NCBI GenBank assembly: GCA_022572185.1
Contig: JACZWL010000036.1
Span: 1-33,250, forward strand
DNA length: 33,250 nucleotides
Direction: 5' to 3'
From: Pseudomonadota bacterium
GTDB lineage: Bacteria; Pseudomonadota; Gammaproteobacteria; Steroidobacterales; Woeseiaceae
The translations under genes were made by a program, and so were the position numbers. The notes beneath the pieces were generated by a model that worked only from the letters and a program-made list of their open reading frames with translations, searched no databases and was not told the origin of the DNA. Below are positions 9,372 through 32,380 of this stretch, in pieces (the stretch's first letter is position 1; each line of letters starts with the position of its first letter).

Positions 9372-9401
9372 AACGATAATCCGCGGCGCATCGCAGGAAC
9401 T

Positions 9402-9463
9402 GTCCGACCGCCAGGGATGGCGGGAGTGCAAGTGTTGCAGGAGCATTCACCTGCCTGACGGGC
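9402..9463. repeat. Composite intergenic repeat, internal module (copy A)
   Basis: These 62 bp, starting GTCCGACCGCC and ending CACCTGCCTGACGGGC, match 20964-21025 at 55 of 62 positions without gaps. The copy lies between the convergent DksA-like and porin genes and reaches to 3 bp before the porin stop codon. Confidence 0.9.
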
Positions 9464-9465
9464 AA

Positions 9466-10707
9466 CTAATAATTCGCGGTTAGCATGATCCAGAACTTGT
9501 TGGTATCGACAAAGGATGTCGCCGCAGAGTCCGCATTGAAGAAAGCTGCTTTCAAGAGTAATCCATAGCGATCGCCGAGCTTTCTTGAGGCGGCAATGTC
9601 GAGTTCCGTGCCAAAGTCACCGCTCCCGGCTTCGGATGAGAAATCATGATAGACGGCCTGCAGATTCCAGGATGCTGCCTTGTACTTCACGGTAACGTAG
9701 CGATCATCGACACCGGAGCCCGGCGTTGCAAGAAACTGATCCGCCCAGCCCTGAAAAGCGTGCAGCGTGGCCAGCGGTGTACGGAACGACATTCCGGCGG
9801 ACGCTGCATCACCACCAAGTGACTCATAGGCGGCGCCGAGTGCCAGTCCGTTTTTCGCCGTCCAGAGTATATTGATGTGCGCATAGTCGGCGTCGTAATT
9901 CACCGGGTTATCGGCCGCGTCGGACTGAGTCGCCAGTTCGGCAGTGAAGTTTATCGTGCCTGCTCCTGCCGCCGCCTTGCCCGTAAAGCGCGCACCAAAG
10001 GTTGATGTCGAGAATAACGGAACATCCTCGTTGTCGATGTAGTAGGCATAAGGTGTAATCGACCAGGCATCGCCAAGTTTGATTTTCGCGTTCAACAGAT
10101 GCGTATTTACGCTGTGGTCGCCGGCCGGAACTTTGTCGCCGAAAATCCGGTTAACGTTTTTAATATAGCTGTAGAAAAGCTCGGTGTTCGGAATGCTCCT
10201 GATCGTCAGGCTGAGAGCATCAAAGGTCTGCTCGTTCTGCCGCCAGCCTACCGCACCGACAAAGCGCTGGTTGTCGAGGTTGATTTTTTGCCTCCCAAGG
10301 CGCATTTGCCAGTCGTCCGATGGGCTGTATTGCAGGTACAGCTGATTCAGATCCGATCCCCTTGGGTCGGCTACGGTCGAGTACTGAATACGGCCCGGAC
10401 TGGTACCCGCGCCGCTGTTGAAGTCATTCAGGATGACCTCGGCGATATGATCGAACTCCACGAAACCCAACCAGTCGCGCCAGTCCGCAGTCTTGTAATT
10501 CAGCCTGATCCGAACTGTCGACGCGTTGGCATCTTTCAGGGCATTGTCCTGATTGACGTGTTCATACCGGTACCGGAGGGCTACATGCGCTTTACCCGAC
10601 GTCAATGCCTCGTCCAACGCAAGCTCGTCGGCCGAGGCGTATGCGAACGGGTTCAGGCACGCCATAATAAGAATTAATCCGGCGAAGACTTTATTTGTGC
10701 GTTTCAT
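9466..10707 (-). CDS. Outer-membrane beta-barrel porin (alginate-export-like)
   Basis: A 413-residue outer-membrane protein. Residues 1-25 form a signal peptide (KVFAGLILIMACLNPFAYASA). The rest consists of amphipathic beta strands with many aromatic girdle residues, a conserved WQMRLGRQKINLDNQRFVG segment seen in alginate-export-domain porins, and a C-terminal aromatic residue (MLTANY). AAGGA lies 8 nt before the ATG. It is the third gene after the TonB receptor and nirS on the same strand, 37 bp after nirS, so it is probably cotranscribed with them. A passage role for small anions or organic ligands is possible; the substrate is unknown, and true alginate export is unlikely as no alginate genes are near. 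Confidence 0.85.
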   Translation of the reverse strand: MKRTNKVFAGLILIMACLNPFAYASADELALDEALTSGKAHVALRYRYEHVNQDNALKDANASTVRIRLNYKTADWRDWLGFVEFDHIAEVILNDFNSGAGTSPGRIQYSTVADPRGSDLNQLYLQYSPSDDWQMRLGRQKINLDNQRFVGAVGWRQNEQTFDALSLTIRSIPNTELFYSYIKNVNRIFGDKVPAGDHSVNTHLLNAKIKLGDAWSITPYAYYIDNEDVPLFSTSTFGARFTGKAAAGAGTINFTAELATQSDAADNPVNYDADYAHINILWTAKNGLALGAAYESLGGDAASAGMSFRTPLATLHAFQGWADQFLATPGSGVDDRYVTVKYKAASWNLQAVYHDFSSEAGSGDFGTELDIAASRKLGDRYGLLLKAAFFNADSAATSFVDTNKFWIMLTANY

Positions 10708-15253: not shown

Positions 15254-15353
15254 AGGCACCGGCTTGCCCCTATCGAGCTCGGCGGTCAGAATCAATGCTC
15301 GCGCGTCAGGACGGGCTCCAACTCAGGCTCGAGAATTGTAAATCTGGACATCC

Positions 15354-15746: not shown

Positions 15747-15761
15747 TTCGTCATTAATCAT

Positions 15762-15893
15762 CCGTCAGGACGGGCTCCTGCGACGATTCTATTACCACCT
15801 GTTGGGATCCGTTCTGCCGGCGAATCAATAAATGTCAGTCGACATCAGTCACGCTGCAACGGATAACGTTGCGAGCACACTGCATCCTGACGG
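15762..15893. repeat. Composite intergenic repeat (copy with 9-bp inverted ends)
   Basis: CCGTCAGGA at 15762-15770 and TCCTGACGG at 15885-15893 are exact inverted ends of a 132-bp unit between the SirB2-like gene and the hybrid kinase. The left part (CGTCAGGACGGGCTCC, then CTGCGACGATTCT) matches 20922-20943 in outline. The right part (GGCGAATCAA ... ATAACGTTGCG ... CTGCATCCTGAC) matches 21022-21083 and the reverse complement of 18888-18976. The 16 nt CGTCAGGACGGGCTCC also recur exactly at 15304-15319. Confidence 0.85.
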
Positions 15894-15954
15894 GCGACTT
15901 GCGATCGTGCCAAAAGATACGGGAAGGAGCCTCCCACCGTTGCAGGCAATTCTG

Positions 15955-18006: not shown

Positions 18007-18861
18007 TCACTTGGCGAGCAGGCTTGAGTGATGCTCCAGTTGGTCTTTCATGAGTGTGGAAATGAAGTAATAACCGTGATCGTAGCCTTGGTGCCGACGT
18101 AATTCGAGATCGACCGAATGCTCGGCACAGGCGGCCTCGAACAGATGGGGATGCAGTTCCTGCTCGAGAAATTGATCGTCAAGTCCCTGATCGATAAGGA
18201 TTTTGTTTTGCGGACGTGAGTCGCCAAGGCCCTTGACCAACTCGGTGGCATCGTATTCCATCCATGACGCTTGATCGGCGCCGAGATAATTCGAAAAAGC
18301 CTTCTGCCCCCAGGGACAATTCATCGGGCTACAGATCGGTGCAAACGCCGAAATCGATCTAAATGTGTCCGGGTTCCTGAGGCCGACGGTCAGGGCGCCG
18401 TGGCCACCCATCGAGTGTCCGAAGATGCCCTGGCGATCCCTGTCGCCCGGGAATTCTGTAAATATGATATCCGGCAGTTCTTTGGTCACATAATCGTACA
18501 TCTGGAAGTTGGCCGACCACGGCGCCTCTGTCGCATTGAGATAAAAGCCGGCGGCAATCCCGAAATCGTAAGCGCCGTCCGGGTCGTCTGGCACTTCGTC
18601 ACCGCGCGGGCTCGTGTCCGGTGATATGAGCATCAGCCCAAGCTCGGCTGCGATTCGCTGCGCCCCGCCCTTGATCATGAAGGTCTCTTCCGTGCAGGTG
18701 AGCCCGGAAAGAAATGTCAGCACCGGTACCCTTGTGTTTGCAGCCTGTGGCGGCACGAAAACCGCAAACCGCATGTCGCAACTGTTGGCGGACGAGCGGT
18801 GACGATAGAAGCCGACCTTGCCACCAAAGCAGCCGTGCTCGCTGATGGTCTCTATCGACAT
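18007..18861 (-). CDS. fghA: S-formylglutathione hydrolase
   Basis: This enzyme hydrolyses S-formylglutathione to formate and glutathione in glutathione-dependent formaldehyde detoxification. The esterase-D alpha/beta-hydrolase triad is visible: Ser in GHSMGGHGAL, Asp in LIDQGLDDQF and His in GYDHGYYFI. FLSGLTCTEETFMIKGGAQR is the family oxyanion region with the typical Cys. Length is 284 residues, near the usual 280. ATG 18861 (MSIETISEHGCFGG) agrees with the family N terminus; a GTG 24 nt upstream would add eight residues. The partner glutathione-dependent formaldehyde dehydrogenase is not in this window. It sits between the kinase and a repeat copy. Confidence 0.95.
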   Translation of the reverse strand: MSIETISEHGCFGGKVGFYRHRSSANSCDMRFAVFVPPQAANTRVPVLTFLSGLTCTEETFMIKGGAQRIAAELGLMLISPDTSPRGDEVPDDPDGAYDFGIAAGFYLNATEAPWSANFQMYDYVTKELPDIIFTEFPGDRDRQGIFGHSMGGHGALTVGLRNPDTFRSISAFAPICSPMNCPWGQKAFSNYLGADQASWMEYDATELVKGLGDSRPQNKILIDQGLDDQFLEQELHPHLFEAACAEHSVDLELRRHQGYDHGYYFISTLMKDQLEHHSSLLAK

Positions 18862-18887
18862 AACTTCATATTCGTCTTGTATCACCT

Positions 18888-18976
18888 GTCAGGAATGCAG
18901 TCCGCCCGCAACGTTATTTGCGGTAATGCGATTGACGCAGACCGATCTTTATTGATTCGCCCATCGGGCGGGCGAA
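18888..18976. repeat. Composite intergenic repeat, right module in reverse orientation (copy B)
   Basis: The reverse complement reads GGGCGAATCAATAAAGAT, then TCAATCGCATTACCG, then CAAATAACGTTGCGGGCGGA, then CTGCATTCCTGAC. This aligns block by block with 21022-21083. It fills most of the gap between fghA and fabB. Confidence 0.8.
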
Positions 18977-20769: not shown

Positions 20770-21090
20770 ACACCCTCCGGAGCATTCTTGATAATTCGGT
20801 GATAGCGGACGTGGCAATTGGCGACGCACAAACGCCGCTCTTTCAGCGGCTTATCTGCCGTAGCGTAGTTTACCGGACACAGTGGCAAAGCGCCTAGGAA
20901 TTGCAGACATTTCGCCTCTGAAGACGGGTTCCTGCAACGATTCTGTTGCTGTCTGCAGGCGCCGTCCGACCGCCGTGGATGGCGCGAGTGTGGGTGTTGC
21001 AAGAGCATTCACCTGCCTGACGGGCGAATCAAAAATGTCAATCGCACCGCAGCAAATAACGCGGTGGGCGGACTGCATCCTGACCGGCGT
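20770..21090. other. Intergenic region between paaE and fabA, mostly repeat
   Basis: These 321 bp follow the paaE stop and precede fabA, which is transcribed in the same direction. The paaE-proximal half is the long copy of the composite repeat (20916-21087). The fabA-proximal part holds a 6-bp GC hairpin at 20834-20850 and presumably the fabA promoter, for which I see no strong hexamers. No gene is evident. Confidence 0.6.
20916..21087. repeat. Composite intergenic repeat, most complete copy (copy C)
   Basis: Three modules follow one another: a left end (AAGACGGGTTCCTGCAACGA at 20921-20940), the 62-bp central block (20964-21025) shared with 9402-9463, and the right block (21022-21087: GGCGAATCAAAAATGTCAAT, CAGCAAATAACGCGGTGGGC, CTGCATCCTGACCGG) shared with 15820-15893 and 18888-18976. 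It lies directly downstream of paaE, ending 3 bp before its stop codon. Confidence 0.88.
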
Positions 21091-22167
21091 TCAGGCCTTA
21101 TCGTAGTCGAGAACCACTGATTGGCTGACCGGGTGAGATTGGCAGGCAAGGACGTAGCCTTTCTCCACCTCCCAGGGTTCCAGACCGTAATTGGTTTCCA
21201 TCTGGACTTCGCCTTCCTGGACATGTGTTCGACAGGTCGCACACACGCCGCCTTTGCAGGAGAAAGGCAGTTCCACGCCGTTCGCGGCGGCGGCATCGAC
21301 GATATTGTCGCCCGCCTTCGGCATATCGAACGACTTGCGATGGCCATCCATGATGACGGTAATTGTAGACAAGTCCTTCAGCTCGGCTGCGCTTGCTTCG
21401 GGTTCGGCGGCATGCTTGCCCTTTCTCGGCGAGCCGTATCTCTCTTTATGGATTTTGTCGCCGTCGAGGCCAAGCTCAGCCAGTGCATTTGTAATCGTTT
21501 CGATCATCGGGAATGGACCGCAAACGAACGCCTCATCCGGATGGAGCCCAGCACAGAATTCGGTGAACAGCTCGCGGACTTTTGCATCATCCATTCGGCC
21601 ACTAAAGATTGGAAACTCCTGTTCTTCCTGAGTGAACAGGAAGTAGAGCTGCAATCGTTCGGGAAATCGATTCTTTAACGCATACAGTTCATCGATGAAC
21701 ATCGTCGTGCTTTGTCGGCGGTTGCCATAAAACAGCACGAACTTGGCATGCGGTTCGCCCTCCAGCGTCGCTCGGATTATCGACATTATGGGTGTGATGC
21801 CGCTGCCCGCTGCAAACGCGAGATAGGTTTTCTTACTTTCCGGGTCCACGCTTACATGAAACTGGCCAAACGGCGGCATGACATCCAGTTCGTCACCGGC
21901 TGCCAGCTCGTTTGCGACGAATTCTGAGAACAATCCTCCGGGCTGGACCCTCACGCCGAGCATTAGTGGCTGCTCACCCGGTACTGAGCAAATGCTGTAT
22001 GTACGACGGATCATCTTGCCGTCGACAGAAATTTGAATCGGCAGATGCTGCCCCGGCAGGAAATCGTATTGTTCCTTCAATTTCTCCGGTACCTGCAGGG
22101 TGACGCGCATCGAGTCGGCAGTTTCCTGGTCGACGCTTTTTACCTTCAGTGAATGAAATTGTCTCAT
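21091..22167 (-). CDS. paaE: Phenylacetyl-CoA epoxidase reductase subunit
   Basis: PaaE passes electrons from NADPH through FAD and a [2Fe-2S] cluster to the PaaA diiron centre. It has 358 residues. The N-terminal FAD domain contains RRTYSICSVPGE, the NAD(P) domain contains FAAGSGITPIMSIIRA and CGPFPMI, and the C-terminal plant-type ferredoxin domain has C-x4-C-x2-C (SCKGGVCATCRTHV) and a fourth Cys in LACQSHP. ATG 22167 (MRQFHSLKVK) matches the usual PaaE start; the longer frame to 22293 would overlap paaD by more than 80 nt. The ribosome site is weak. It is the last gene of paaABCDE. Confidence 0.95.
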   Translation of the reverse strand: MRQFHSLKVKSVDQETADSMRVTLQVPEKLKEQYDFLPGQHLPIQISVDGKMIRRTYSICSVPGEQPLMLGVRVQPGGLFSEFVANELAAGDELDVMPPFGQFHVSVDPESKKTYLAFAAGSGITPIMSIIRATLEGEPHAKFVLFYGNRRQSTTMFIDELYALKNRFPERLQLYFLFTQEEQEFPIFSGRMDDAKVRELFTEFCAGLHPDEAFVCGPFPMIETITNALAELGLDGDKIHKERYGSPRKGKHAAEPEASAAELKDLSTITVIMDGHRKSFDMPKAGDNIVDAAAANGVELPFSCKGGVCATCRTHVQEGEVQMETNYGLEPWEVEKGYVLACQSHPVSQSVVLDYDKA

Positions 22168-22210
22168 GTCGTCGTCAAATCGCGGCTGGACCCCCGGGGT
22201 CCGTGTCCAT

Positions 22211-22723
22211 TCAAATACATTTGAAATATTCAAATGGCTCAAGACATTCGTCGCACTTGTACGATGCCTTACAGGGTGTCGATCCGAATTCACTGACCAG
22301 CGTCGTGTTGTCGACGCCGCAACGCGGACAGTGAACCGTTCGTTTGATGCCTGTTAATTCTCGCTTGCTCATGCTCCCCTCGGGCGGAGCGATGCCATAC
22401 GCTCGCAGCTTGTCTCTGCCGACTTCGCTGATCCAGTCTGTTGTCCATGGCGGCGACAAGACCCGTTTCAGCGAAACGTTTTGGACACCGTTTTTTTGTA
22501 ATTCCGCGATAATGCTTTGCTCGATAACCTCAGTCGCCGGACACCCCGAGTAGGTAGGTGCAACGGAGACTTCGACACCATCGGAACTGATCGCCACGCC
22601 CCGGACAATACCGAGATCGACGAGGCTCAAGACCGGAATCTCGGGATCGGGCACGTCGGCCAGCCAGGCCCAAATCTGTTCCTCCCTCTCGCAGCTGCCA
22701 GTTTTAGGTTTCACGACCTGCAT
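22211..22723 (-). CDS. paaD: Phenylacetyl-CoA epoxidase assembly protein PaaD
   Basis: A 170-residue PaaD (also called PaaJ) protein. The N-terminal MIP18/DUF59-like domain (about 14-95) has WAWLADVPDPEIPVLSLVDL and YSGCPATEVIE. The C-terminal zinc-ribbon-like region has paired Cys in VHCPRCG and SYKCDECLEPF. PaaD is linked to Fe-S or diiron maturation of the epoxidase rather than to catalysis. It starts 7 nt after the paaC stop and lies 43 nt ahead of paaE. Confidence 0.94.
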   Translation of the reverse strand: MQVVKPKTGSCEREEQIWAWLADVPDPEIPVLSLVDLGIVRGVAISSDGVEVSVAPTYSGCPATEVIEQSIIAELQKNGVQNVSLKRVLSPPWTTDWISEVGRDKLRAYGIAPPEGSMSKRELTGIKRTVHCPRCGVDNTTLVSEFGSTPCKASYKCDECLEPFEYFKCI

Positions 22724-25373: not shown

Positions 25374-25449
25374 TCTGTTCGCTACCTCCTGTCAACCGTC
25401 CGTCAGGACAGGCCCCAACGATACGACAGCGTAGCACTCATCGATACGG

Positions 25450-28604: not shown

Positions 28605-28623
28605 TCGTCAGATAATCGCCCAT

Positions 28624-28648
28624 CTTCTCTGATAGCTAATCAGAGAAG
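28624..28648 (+). terminator. Hairpin after paaZ
   Basis: CTTCTCTGAT and ATCAGAGAAG form a perfect 10-bp stem with loop AGCTA, 19 nt after the paaZ stop. No T run follows. About 20 nt further on lies a second hairpin, GCCCGTC-CT-GACGGGC (28667-28682), identical to the repeat core after queF. Confidence 0.6.
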
Positions 28649-28666
28649 ACTGCCAACATACAAGGA

Positions 28667-28685
28667 GCCCGTCCTGACGGGCGAT
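28667..28685. repeat. Short palindromic core of the composite repeat
   Basis: GCCCGTCCTGACGGGCGAT is identical over 19 nt to 967-985. It forms a 7-bp stem with a CT loop. Both copies sit just after a plus-strand gene. Confidence 0.8.
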
Positions 28686-31041: not shown

Positions 31042-31060
31042 TGTTCCCATTTTGGGAACA
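31042..31060 (-). promoter_or_regulatory. higBA operator dyad
   Basis: TGTTCCCA and TGGGAACA are perfect 8-bp inverted arms with a 3-bp spacer, centred 22 bp upstream of the toxin start. TATTAG, a -10-like hexamer on minus, lies just between it and the start. This is the expected place for HigA autorepression. Confidence 0.75.
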
Positions 31061-31123
31061 AGCAGGTATTTCACATAATCGGAGAAGTTGTTAGACACCC
31101 TAAGCCAAAGGGTTACTGAGTTC

Positions 31124-31274
31124 TGCGGATATTAGAGGTCATTTTATCCGCATTTTTCGCAGAGAATAATAGGGTTGCGGAGGCTAAACGCACTATTCTC
31201 CGTGTTTTCTGCGGATTTTAATTGTCAGTGCGGAGAATATGGCTCATAATATCCGCAAAATATACGGAGATTAT
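31124..31274 (+). promoter_or_regulatory. Fic leader with clustered TGCGGA boxes
   Basis: About eight related boxes occur in 150 bp: TGCGGATATT (31124), ATCCGCA (31146, inverted), TGCGGAGG (31176), ATTCTCCGTG (31195, inverted), CTGCGGATTTT (31209), GTGCGGAGAAT (31228), AATATCCGCA (31248, inverted) and TACGGAGATTAT (31263). The last includes the GGAG ribosome site of the Fic gene. Several pair in opposite orientation, so both operator and RNA-hairpin roles are possible. Confidence 0.65.
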
Positions 31275-31276
31275 GA

Positions 31277-32380
31277 GTGATCTACATCTGGAAACAGCAA
31301 GAATGGCCTGAACTGAGCTGGGATGAGCGGCGGCTCTCCAAGCTGCTTGGCGCTGTCTCACAGGAGCAAGGGCGCCTGCTCGGCAAGATGGAGTCGATTG
31401 GCTTTGACCTGCGAAGTGAGGCCCATCTCCTTACCCTCACCGAAGACGTCGTCAAATCAAGCGAGATCGAAGGCGAAAAGCTGGAGCGCGATCAGGTCCG
31501 CTCGTCGATCGCTCGCCGGCTCGGCATGGACATCGCCGGCCTCGTGCCGGCCGACCGCAACGTAGAAGGCGTGGTCGAGATGATGCTGGATGCGACTGGC
31601 AACTATGGCCAGGCGCTGACAGATGAGCGTCTATTTGACTGGCATGCTGCCCTCTTTCCAACAGGCCGAAGCGGCATGACAAAGATCAATGTAGGCATGT
31701 GGCGCGATGATGCCAGCGGGCCAATGCAGGTCATATCGGGGCCAATGGGCCGGGAAACAGTCCATTATGAAGCACCACCGGCTAAAAGCGTTCCTGACGA
31801 GATGCGACACTTTCTCGAGTGGTTCGAAAACCCTGGAGAAAGTCATCCCCTGCTGATCGCCGCACTCGCGCATTTGTGGTTTGTAACAGTCCATCCATTC
31901 GATGATGGGAACGGGCGTATTGCACGTGCAATAACCGATATGGCCCTGGCACGTTCTGAAAACAGCGGGCAGCGCTTCTACAGCATGTCCGCGCAAATTC
32001 AGAAGGAGCGCAAAGACTACTACTACACTCTCGAATGGACACAAAAAGGTGATATGGATGTCACGCGCTGGCAGAACTGGTTTTTGAATTGCCTGCTCCG
32101 CGCAATAGAAGGTAGCGAAGAAACTTTGGATGCCGTCATGGTGAAAGCGCGGTTCTGGGATCGCTTCGCGAAGGCACCGCTTAATGATCGTCAGATAAAG
32201 GTAATAAACAAACTACTCGACGGTTTTGAAGGAAAACTGACGACATCCAAGTGGGCCAAAATAGCAAAGTGTTCTCAGGATACCGCCTATCGAGATATCC
32301 TCGATCTTGTCAAGCGCGGCGCGCTGCAAAAAGACCCCGGTGGCGGTCGCAGCACGAGTTACTCCGTCGTCGACCAATAG
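31277..32380 (+). CDS. Class II Fic-domain protein (probable AMP-transferase)
   Basis: A 367-residue Fic protein. An N-terminal helical domain (1-110, DUF4172-like, beginning IYIWKQQEWPELSWD) carries the inhibitory motif SSEIEG (residues 61-66, the [S/T]-x3-E-[G/N] pattern), so it is a self-inhibited class II member. The Fic core (about 115-260) has an intact HPFDDGNGRIAR (206-217) with catalytic His206. A C-terminal winged helix-turn-helix (about 300-365: NDRQIKVINKLLDGFEGKLT, CSQDTAYRDILDLVKRGAL) suggests DNA binding or target docking. The start is GTG 31277, 8 nt after GGAG. Such proteins modify a protein hydroxyl with AMP; the target is unknown. Confidence 0.93.
   Translation: MIYIWKQQEWPELSWDERRLSKLLGAVSQEQGRLLGKMESIGFDLRSEAHLLTLTEDVVKSSEIEGEKLERDQVRSSIARRLGMDIAGLVPADRNVEGVVEMMLDATGNYGQALTDERLFDWHAALFPTGRSGMTKINVGMWRDDASGPMQVISGPMGRETVHYEAPPAKSVPDEMRHFLEWFENPGESHPLLIAALAHLWFVTVHPFDDGNGRIARAITDMALARSENSGQRFYSMSAQIQKERKDYYYTLEWTQKGDMDVTRWQNWFLNCLLRAIEGSEETLDAVMVKARFWDRFAKAPLNDRQIKVINKLLDGFEGKLTTSKWAKIAKCSQDTAYRDILDLVKRGALQKDPGGGRSTSYSVVDQ

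Follow-up and report, generated by a model that had tools for sequence, protein, structure and literature searches.

The intergenic repeats described here are probably non-autonomous mobile DNA of the REP/REPIN type, with a longer unit that carries a two-hairpin cassette and would be moved in trans by an enzyme of the HUH class. They were found in a stretch of 33,250 nucleotides from a gammaproteobacterium of the Woeseiaceae ("the window"; contig C43 of genome G000, a 3.14 Mb assembly of 99 contigs called the own genome below). An earlier sequence-only reading of the window had proposed a non-autonomous mobile element of modular build, and this is supported by the dispersal of the copies, a natural empty site and nested insertions; its suggestion that the element is structured is strongly supported by compensatory changes in the stems. 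REP-type repeats are common in bacteria, and the way in which they spread is poorly understood (PMC8266576).

Short and long repeat units in the window and its genome

The core of the short unit, GGAGCCCGTCCTGACGGGCGA, is present at 70 places in the own genome when up to three mismatches are allowed (42 forward and 28 reverse, 12 of them perfect), while the reversed pattern, used as a control at the same tolerance, is present at none. A search with the fullest window copy gave 23 places at E ≤ 0.001 in the 3.14-Mb assembly. These counts, set against the empty control, show that the similarities first noticed within the window belong to a genome-wide family and not to local duplication of one spacer. 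The short-unit consensus, (G)TNGGAGCCCGTCCTGACGGGCGAT, consists of a GTAG-like head followed by GAGC, a single hairpin and a GCGA tail, and folds as DNA with −7.0 kcal/mol (z −3.2). The head is not a constant GTAG; by eye, GTAG, GTTG, GCAG, GTGG and others such as CAAG are seen in the displayed copies. Short units occur both singly and as inverted pairs: 42 of the 70 have no neighbour within 120 bp, and 10 of the 15 neighbouring pairs within that distance are inverted with starts 42–57 bp apart (the other five are three direct pairs on the plus strand, one direct pair on the minus strand and one pair inverted the other way). Its copy number and inverted doublets fit the REP/REPIN kind, and from the 70 places, the empty control and the ten inverted pairs we take the short unit to be an ordinary REP-like repeat. 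We say "REP-like" because no RAYT gene flanked by the same repeat was found in the own genome, though such a gene may be missing from an assembly that is 96% complete; REP families without a RAYT of their own are on record, namely the CGTC type (PMC3733652). The resemblance to GTAG-type REPs and REPINs lies in the short palindrome, the GTAG-like though variable head, the unpaired tail, the high copy number and the inverted pairing (PMC3733652, PMC3116915). The family differs from them in having a 74-nt long unit, in which two extra hairpins replace the loop, and in that no transposase gene flanked by it was found.

The window's short-unit copies are located at gene ends. On the minus strand, short REPs lie at 15299–15319 (one mismatch) and 15758–15778 (two mismatches), the latter forming the left part of an inverted pair with a decayed short REP on the plus strand at 15801–15824 that faces it (similarity by eye). 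Further decayed minus-strand units are found at 20913–20935 (also by eye) and 25396–25416 (more than three mismatches from the consensus), and a perfect unit lies on the plus strand at 28664–28684. Positions 964–985, just after a QueF-type gene at 149–958, hold a perfect 22-bp palindrome, ATCGCCCGTCCTGACGGGCGAT, that looks like two fused REP tails. The four short cores reported earlier are thus all present (964–985, 15299–15319, 25396–25416 and 28664–28684). Elsewhere in the window, several copies of a TCTGCGGAT / ATCCGCA-like motif were seen by eye at 31060–31277, upstream of the ORF at 31277–32380, and could be operator sites.

The long unit is sharply bounded at 74 nt; in an alignment of 18 copies mean column identity is 92%, the ends are sharp and the flanks are unlike, and a covariance model of the central module has 20 matches in the own genome at E ≤ 0.001. 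Its order is head GCAGGAGC, an outer stem, hairpin H1 (loop ATGGAT), hairpin H2 (loop GCAGGAGC) and tail CTGACGGGCGAT, and the consensus strand folds as DNA with −19.8 kcal/mol (z −3.6). The loop letters are near-constant in the own genome, where the search pattern did not fix them. By inspection of own-genome copies, the head and tail are common to the short and long units and the extra sequence replaces the short unit's loop, so that the long unit looks like a REP with a two-hairpin cassette in its loop; we infer that a cassette which entered a short REP gave rise to it. It works like a standard REP and is not classed as one, since it is 74 nt long with three stems and a standard REP is a single palindrome of 20–40 bp.

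The window holds two long units, both on the plus strand. One, at 9393–9466, takes up the whole space between a DksA-like and an alginate-export-like gene that converge, and its tail enters the stop codon at 9466; H1 occupies 9408–9423 and H2 9428–9454 (match to cassette model R2 at 9407–9455). The other, at 20955–21028, is the fullest copy. When the structure of model R1 is mapped on it, the outer stem pairs 20963–20968 with 21021–21026, and inside this stem lie H1 at 20970–20985, with loop GTGGAT in place of the family consensus ATGGAT, and H2 at 20990–21016, with loop GCAAGAGC in place of the consensus GCAGGAGC (model R2 match at 20969–21017). A right module follows at 21023–21089 on the same strand and ends beside the stop codon of the oxidoreductase gene at 21091–22293. 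This module has four fair-length copies in the own genome, plus two tail-only matches; the other two window copies are at 15819–15900 (plus strand, ending in the REP tail TCCTGACGGGCGA) and, reversed, at 18882–18961 on the minus strand.

These boundaries correct the limits given earlier for the fullest copy, 20916–21087, which do not coincide with those of its units: the copy is real and is composed of the decayed inverted short repeat at 20913–20935, the long unit and the right module. The likeness among the four sizeable copies is borne out. Within the 33-kb window, 20900–21095 matches 9393–9472 over 80 nt at 82.5% identity (blastn E 4e-19), 18885–18936 in reverse at 83% and 15845–15896 at 73%; the 55/62 identity of 9402–9463 is exact when it is compared with 20964–21025, and the 9-bp inverted ends of 15762–15893 are as described. 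The copies had all been placed between genes, which is mostly so; the one at 18882–18961 overlaps the predicted GTG start of the ORF at 18007–18885 by a few bases.

Other modules join the same units. A further hairpin (TCTTCTCTGAT-AGCT-AATCAGAGAAGA; 28615–28649 in the window, plus strand) is joined to a perfect short REP in three places: L063 (window 28615–28685), L065 and L067. Another composite, at L056 and L057, consists of a GCCATGGATGG-type hairpin and, some way after it, GCGGATTGCATCCTGACGGGCGA, and links an H1-like hairpin to the tail of the right module. REPs combined with unrelated stem-loops are known from P. putida and P. fluorescens, where some RAYT genes have degenerate GTAG units adjoined to such structures, in hundreds of copies (PMC3733652). 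The likeness is the combination of degenerate GTAG units with other stem-loops; the difference, as far as descriptions alone can be compared, is that those stem-loops are described as adjoined (PMC3733652), whereas the cassette here lies inside a hairpin and is found class-wide.

The two-hairpin cassette across Gammaproteobacteria

In genus g4 of the same family, the long unit at L028 reads GTAGGAGCCCGC-ACGACC-H1-H2-GA-GCGGGCG, and the outer stem varies again at L027 and L030. The outer and H2 stems of this genus differ from those of the own genome; the H2 loop is identical, and the H1 loop is identical or one letter off. For a wider search, one genome per species was scanned with the pattern GCCATGGATGGC, 12–20 free positions and GCAGGAGC. 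At least 118 stretches match, nearly all of them from Gammaproteobacteria and a few labelled only Proteobacteria; the genera include Microbulbifer, Thalassolituus, Methylotuvimicrobium, Saccharospirillum, Marinobacter, Halopseudomonas, Dokdonella and others. Microvirga and Pseudoduganella clearly stand outside this class, and their matches, spaced by 14 and 17, look fortuitous; among the matches listed, the free spacing is 15 in 113 of 123. The 49-nt cassette model (R2) has matches at E ≤ 1e-8 in 73 of 369 class genomes and at E ≤ 1e-12 in 54 (few candidates were scored per genome). At E ≤ 0.001 the number of genomes rises to 197 of 369, with many weak matches; those with E between 1e-8 and 1e-3 include fragments of ~20 nt and were excluded from copy counts. 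Deeper scoring at E ≤ 1e-4 gave 161 matches in G331 (M. buryatense) and 148 in G068 (Methylomicrobium sp. wino1), both methanotroph genomes, and 16 in G446.

The stems of the cassette covary. Among 90 distinct copies, which have 44 different H2 5′ arms, none of 500 shuffles came up to the eight main pairs of H2, to a ninth one (x15-y2) or to the two that close H1. Three more possible pairs in these copies (the third pair of H1, x6-y11 and x15-y1) did not reach this level; y1 is A in 84 of the 90 and is read as a bulge. An alignment of 56 copies has 91.6% paired cells against 74.5% in shuffled alignments, a covariation score of 0.439 against 0.141 shuffled and at most 0.134 when slid, and 161 cells in which both sides have changed, against 51.8. 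Pairs with at least one double change number 11 against 9.6, a value that 91 of 500 shuffles reach, and so are not in excess of the shuffles. The cassette is conserved across Gammaproteobacteria by its shape and its loop letters, not by its stem letters, with the proviso that in the class-wide copies the loop letters were fixed by the search pattern itself. The outer stem is not universal: it scores at least 20 in 33 of 109 class-wide copies, while 5.5% of the mismatched flanks used as a control do so.

In the plasmid database PLSDB, a 76-nt query that included the cassette of Marinobacter had no match at E ≤ 0.01. The sequence-only reading knew of no named family with this sequence. That holds for the two-hairpin cassette, of which limited literature searches found no description, and does not hold for the short core, which fits REP/REPIN.

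Insertion sites and nested copies

A natural empty site suggests that the cassette is mobile. A Methylobacter sp. MAG (L164) and M. tundripaludum SV96 (L123) are ~89–90% identical on both sides of a gap flanked by what we take to be atpA and atpG; directly after the upstream stop codon L164 has ~71 extra nt that include the cassette, and L123 is without the insert. No target duplication is visible at this, the single site compared, and either state could be ancestral. A second candidate pair, L093/L132, was discarded, since the site is not cleanly empty.

In methanotroph genomes, a 48-nt copy of the cassette also lies inside the H2 loop of another copy. When TGCAGGAGCA was scanned at seven cut points, TGC^A had 45 cases and TGCA^G, one ambiguous base away, had 41; each of the other five had 27–30, and their displayed rows are mainly tandem arrays. 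After removal of the tandem arrays 17 rows were left, ten of which are separate cases of a 48-nt copy nested at a single position of the loop; their hosts have no fewer than three kinds of stem (GCAGATATT; GCAGATTTT or GCAGGTTTT; and GTCGATTTT). The other seven comprise two L284 rows that are one palindrome, L368 and L370 with inserts of 119 nt, an L349 row that is a longer version of its neighbour, and the rows at L348 and L177, which were rejected since they look like chance. Hosts that differ in stem type carry the same insert, which speaks for repeated insertion into the H2 loop; part of the nested forms could have come from one compound in which the host stem was later exchanged. At the M. 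buryatense loci L368 and L370, tandem arrays of the 49-nt cassette are accompanied by the larger 119-nt inserts at the same point of the H2 loop, giving several levels of nesting.

The two sites of long units in the window were compared with those of relatives. After the alginate-export-like gene (stop at 9466) a strong cassette match is present in 2 of 23 loci fetched, those of the own genome and G018, and L314 has a weak match of 21 bits on the other side of the gene. By eye, G003 has an inverted pair of short REPs at this site and G013 a single short REP with the stem that serves as outer stem in the long unit of G013 itself; no REP was seen, again by eye and with some slices shifted, in 16 other relatives. 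That sites of one kind take both short and long forms suggests repeated insertion more than inheritance. Vertical inheritance of the 9393–9466 copy, suggested by a GGGCAAC tail common to the own genome and G018, was set aside as the less probable reading because the congeners G003 and G013 carry short REPs there. At the 20955 site, only the own locus among 24 fetched has a strong cassette match; other REP-like repeats were seen by eye near the equivalent site in L331 and L332.

Gene context, candidate enzymes and alternative explanations

Gene context was assessed with a crude ORF caller that may overextend 5′ ends, and copies at most 250 nt from a locus end were excluded. Sixteen of 19 own-genome copies lie between ORFs (10 between convergent and 3 between divergent genes, 1 sense and 2 antisense in same-direction gaps), two lie inside an ORF and one at a contig edge. 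Class-wide, 62 copies lie between ORFs (16 convergent, 11 divergent, 17 sense and 18 antisense), 35 inside a called ORF, perhaps through 5′ overextension, and three at edges. The preference for convergent genes is thus seen only in the own genome (10 of 16) and not in the class-wide set (16 of 62), and the same-direction gaps of both sets together, with 18 sense and 20 antisense copies, show no strand bias relative to genes. Replication strand has no visible effect in M. buryatense either: 52 places run with replication and 43 against it, by hand-made sums from 500-kb bins over 95 merged places (103 listed of 161 matches). This counts against a simple lagging-strand inserter, of which a bias would be expected.

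The Y1_Tnp domain (PF01797) is present in 25 of 29 cassette-bearing genomes, with 97 matches, 12 of them in Methylomicrobium sp. wino1, and four genomes are without a match. No cassette was found within ~1.5 kb of such a gene by regular expression and model R2 at any of 32 loci (the two of the own genome and 30 of the 97 matches); a single regular-expression hit, at the edge of L218, has no counterpart among the matches of model R2. Both Y1_Tnp genes of the own genome are flanked by repeats other than the family studied here. The second, L025 (C89:6216-6539), has copies of GTAGGAGCGGCTTCAGCCGCGATC on both sides, which looks like a GTAG REP with a stem unlike that of our family, and the flank of the other has GGGG...CCCC repeats, consistent with GGGGWSAS, a motif reported for TIR-type transposases (PMC3733652). 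Apart from the family under study, GGGGTCTGTCCC repeats occur in the window at 994–1017, near the palindrome at 964–985, and at L024, and a like repeat flanks the own-genome Y1_Tnp gene at C61:20760-21098; they are similar to the TIR-type elements of the same source (PMC3733652). Among ORFs within 2.5 kb of copies, none of the 25 largest clusters occurs in more than seven loci and none is transposase-like by eye.

A different lead comes from ISCR/IS91. At three distinct loci in three genomes (L029 = L239, L157, and L170 = L274) the cassette abuts the same point in the C-terminal part of an ISCR-type transposase fragment, and at L029 an N-terminal fragment lies on its other side; family scores of these short pieces are far below the full-length cut-off. 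Two loci that seemed similar by eye, L032 and L115, gave no significant hit and were dropped. The abutment is a possible link to a rolling-circle HUH enzyme, and no transposase is firmly linked to the cassette. TnpA-REP of E. coli depends on the GTAG head and on a bulge in the folded strand (PMC8266576); the cassette is reminiscent of that substrate, no more, in the bulged A of its H2 and in loop letters that resemble a REP.

That the cassette is an RNA element in mRNA tails, binding or titrating CsrA through the GGA of its loops (AUGGAU and CAGGAGC), we consider unlikely. CsrA/RsmA sites contain GGA, conserved loops on covarying stems are what a loop-reading partner would be expected to leave, and the RNA folds with −33.9 kcal/mol (z −2.3); against this, the class-wide loop letters were fixed by the search pattern, and the even sense and antisense counts, in the own genome (1 and 2) as in the others (17 and 18), argue against function as an RNA of one strand and show no preference for the transcribed strand of the kind that a CsrA-type RNA would have. 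The fullest window copy is antisense to both of its neighbours. Rfam scans of the window and 18 other loci at gathering thresholds assigned the cassette to no family, and weak rows without relation to it were all that permissive scans of small sets produced. The earlier suggestion of an RNA or termination module is not supported, given copies in both orientations and no Rfam family at threshold. The TwoAYGGAY RNA motif, listed for human gut, Gammaproteobacteria and Clostridiales (PMC2864571), resembles the cassette in that, to judge from its name, it has two AYGGAY stretches; the cassette differs in its H2 loop, GCAGGAGC, and in its lack of strand bias. The title of the sequence-only reading suggests a MITE that derives from a classical (DDE) transposon and ends in the inverted repeats CCGTCAGGA/TCCTGACGG. 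This would account for the ends of the copy at 15762–15893, which are of that type, and is the least probable of the rivals: the left end of that copy is a short REP that is also found alone, the spacing of pairs varies, the 74-nt unit lacks such inverted ends, so that they are not a feature of each copy, and the one empty site of the cassette has no target duplication.

We give the same low probability as for the RNA element to kinship of the cassette with the YPAL/RU-2 element of Yersinia (~168 bp, mobile and intergenic), in which case it would spread by YPAL's own route and not by a RAYT-like enzyme. What speaks for it is that the flank of a Methylotuvimicrobium composite (L377, 266–363, minus strand; GACGCCGUAAAUAC..AUGUAGGC) matches the Yersinia sRNA family Ysr224 of Rfam, perhaps a transcript of YPAL, over 107 model positions with 24.3 bits (E 0.0012 in a search of 221 bases, 0.018 in one of 3,206 bases). 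This score is far below the Ysr224 gathering score of 70, and the matched part adjoins the two-hairpin cassette rather than lying within it; similar flanks are present at other Methylotuvimicrobium copies. YPAL is the nearest larger element by habit, being a mobile intergenic repeat with internal inverted repeats that targets sites in or beside dyad symmetry (PMC2229807). It differs in its length and in its target duplications of 3–26 bp (PMC2229807), of which none was seen at the single empty site of the cassette, and its sequence link is limited to the sub-threshold match beside the cassette.

The explanation that we favour, mobile DNA of the REP/REPIN type, would work as follows. The substrate would be a folded single strand of DNA, and the enzyme that recognises it, working in trans, a single-strand transposase of HUH class; we infer both the single-stranded state and the enzyme class. 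Copies would insert without visible target duplication, often beside stop codons, and would also enter the loops of other hairpins, including the cassette's own H2 loop (cut GC^A/GCA^GGAGC). A bolder reading, which we put forward tentatively and hold to be considerably less probable, is that the cassette is an independent mobile unit of the whole class that inserts into the hairpin loops of folded DNA, those of REPs and of its own H2. Its loop GCAGGAGC, which repeats the REP head, would then be both recognition mark and insertion point, and the cassette would parasitise hairpin elements, giving nested and three-way structures, with stems that drift under the constraint of pairing alone. Roles for the host, such as mRNA stabilisation or an effect on supercoiling, have been hypothesised for REPs (PMC3733652), and a function of this sort is possible for the window's family too.

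With its constant loops, freely covarying stems, far more than 100 copies in some methanotrophs and recurring single cut point, the cassette offers a concrete substrate for an enzyme search, and it could explain composite hairpins in gammaproteobacterial spacers that have no Rfam name.
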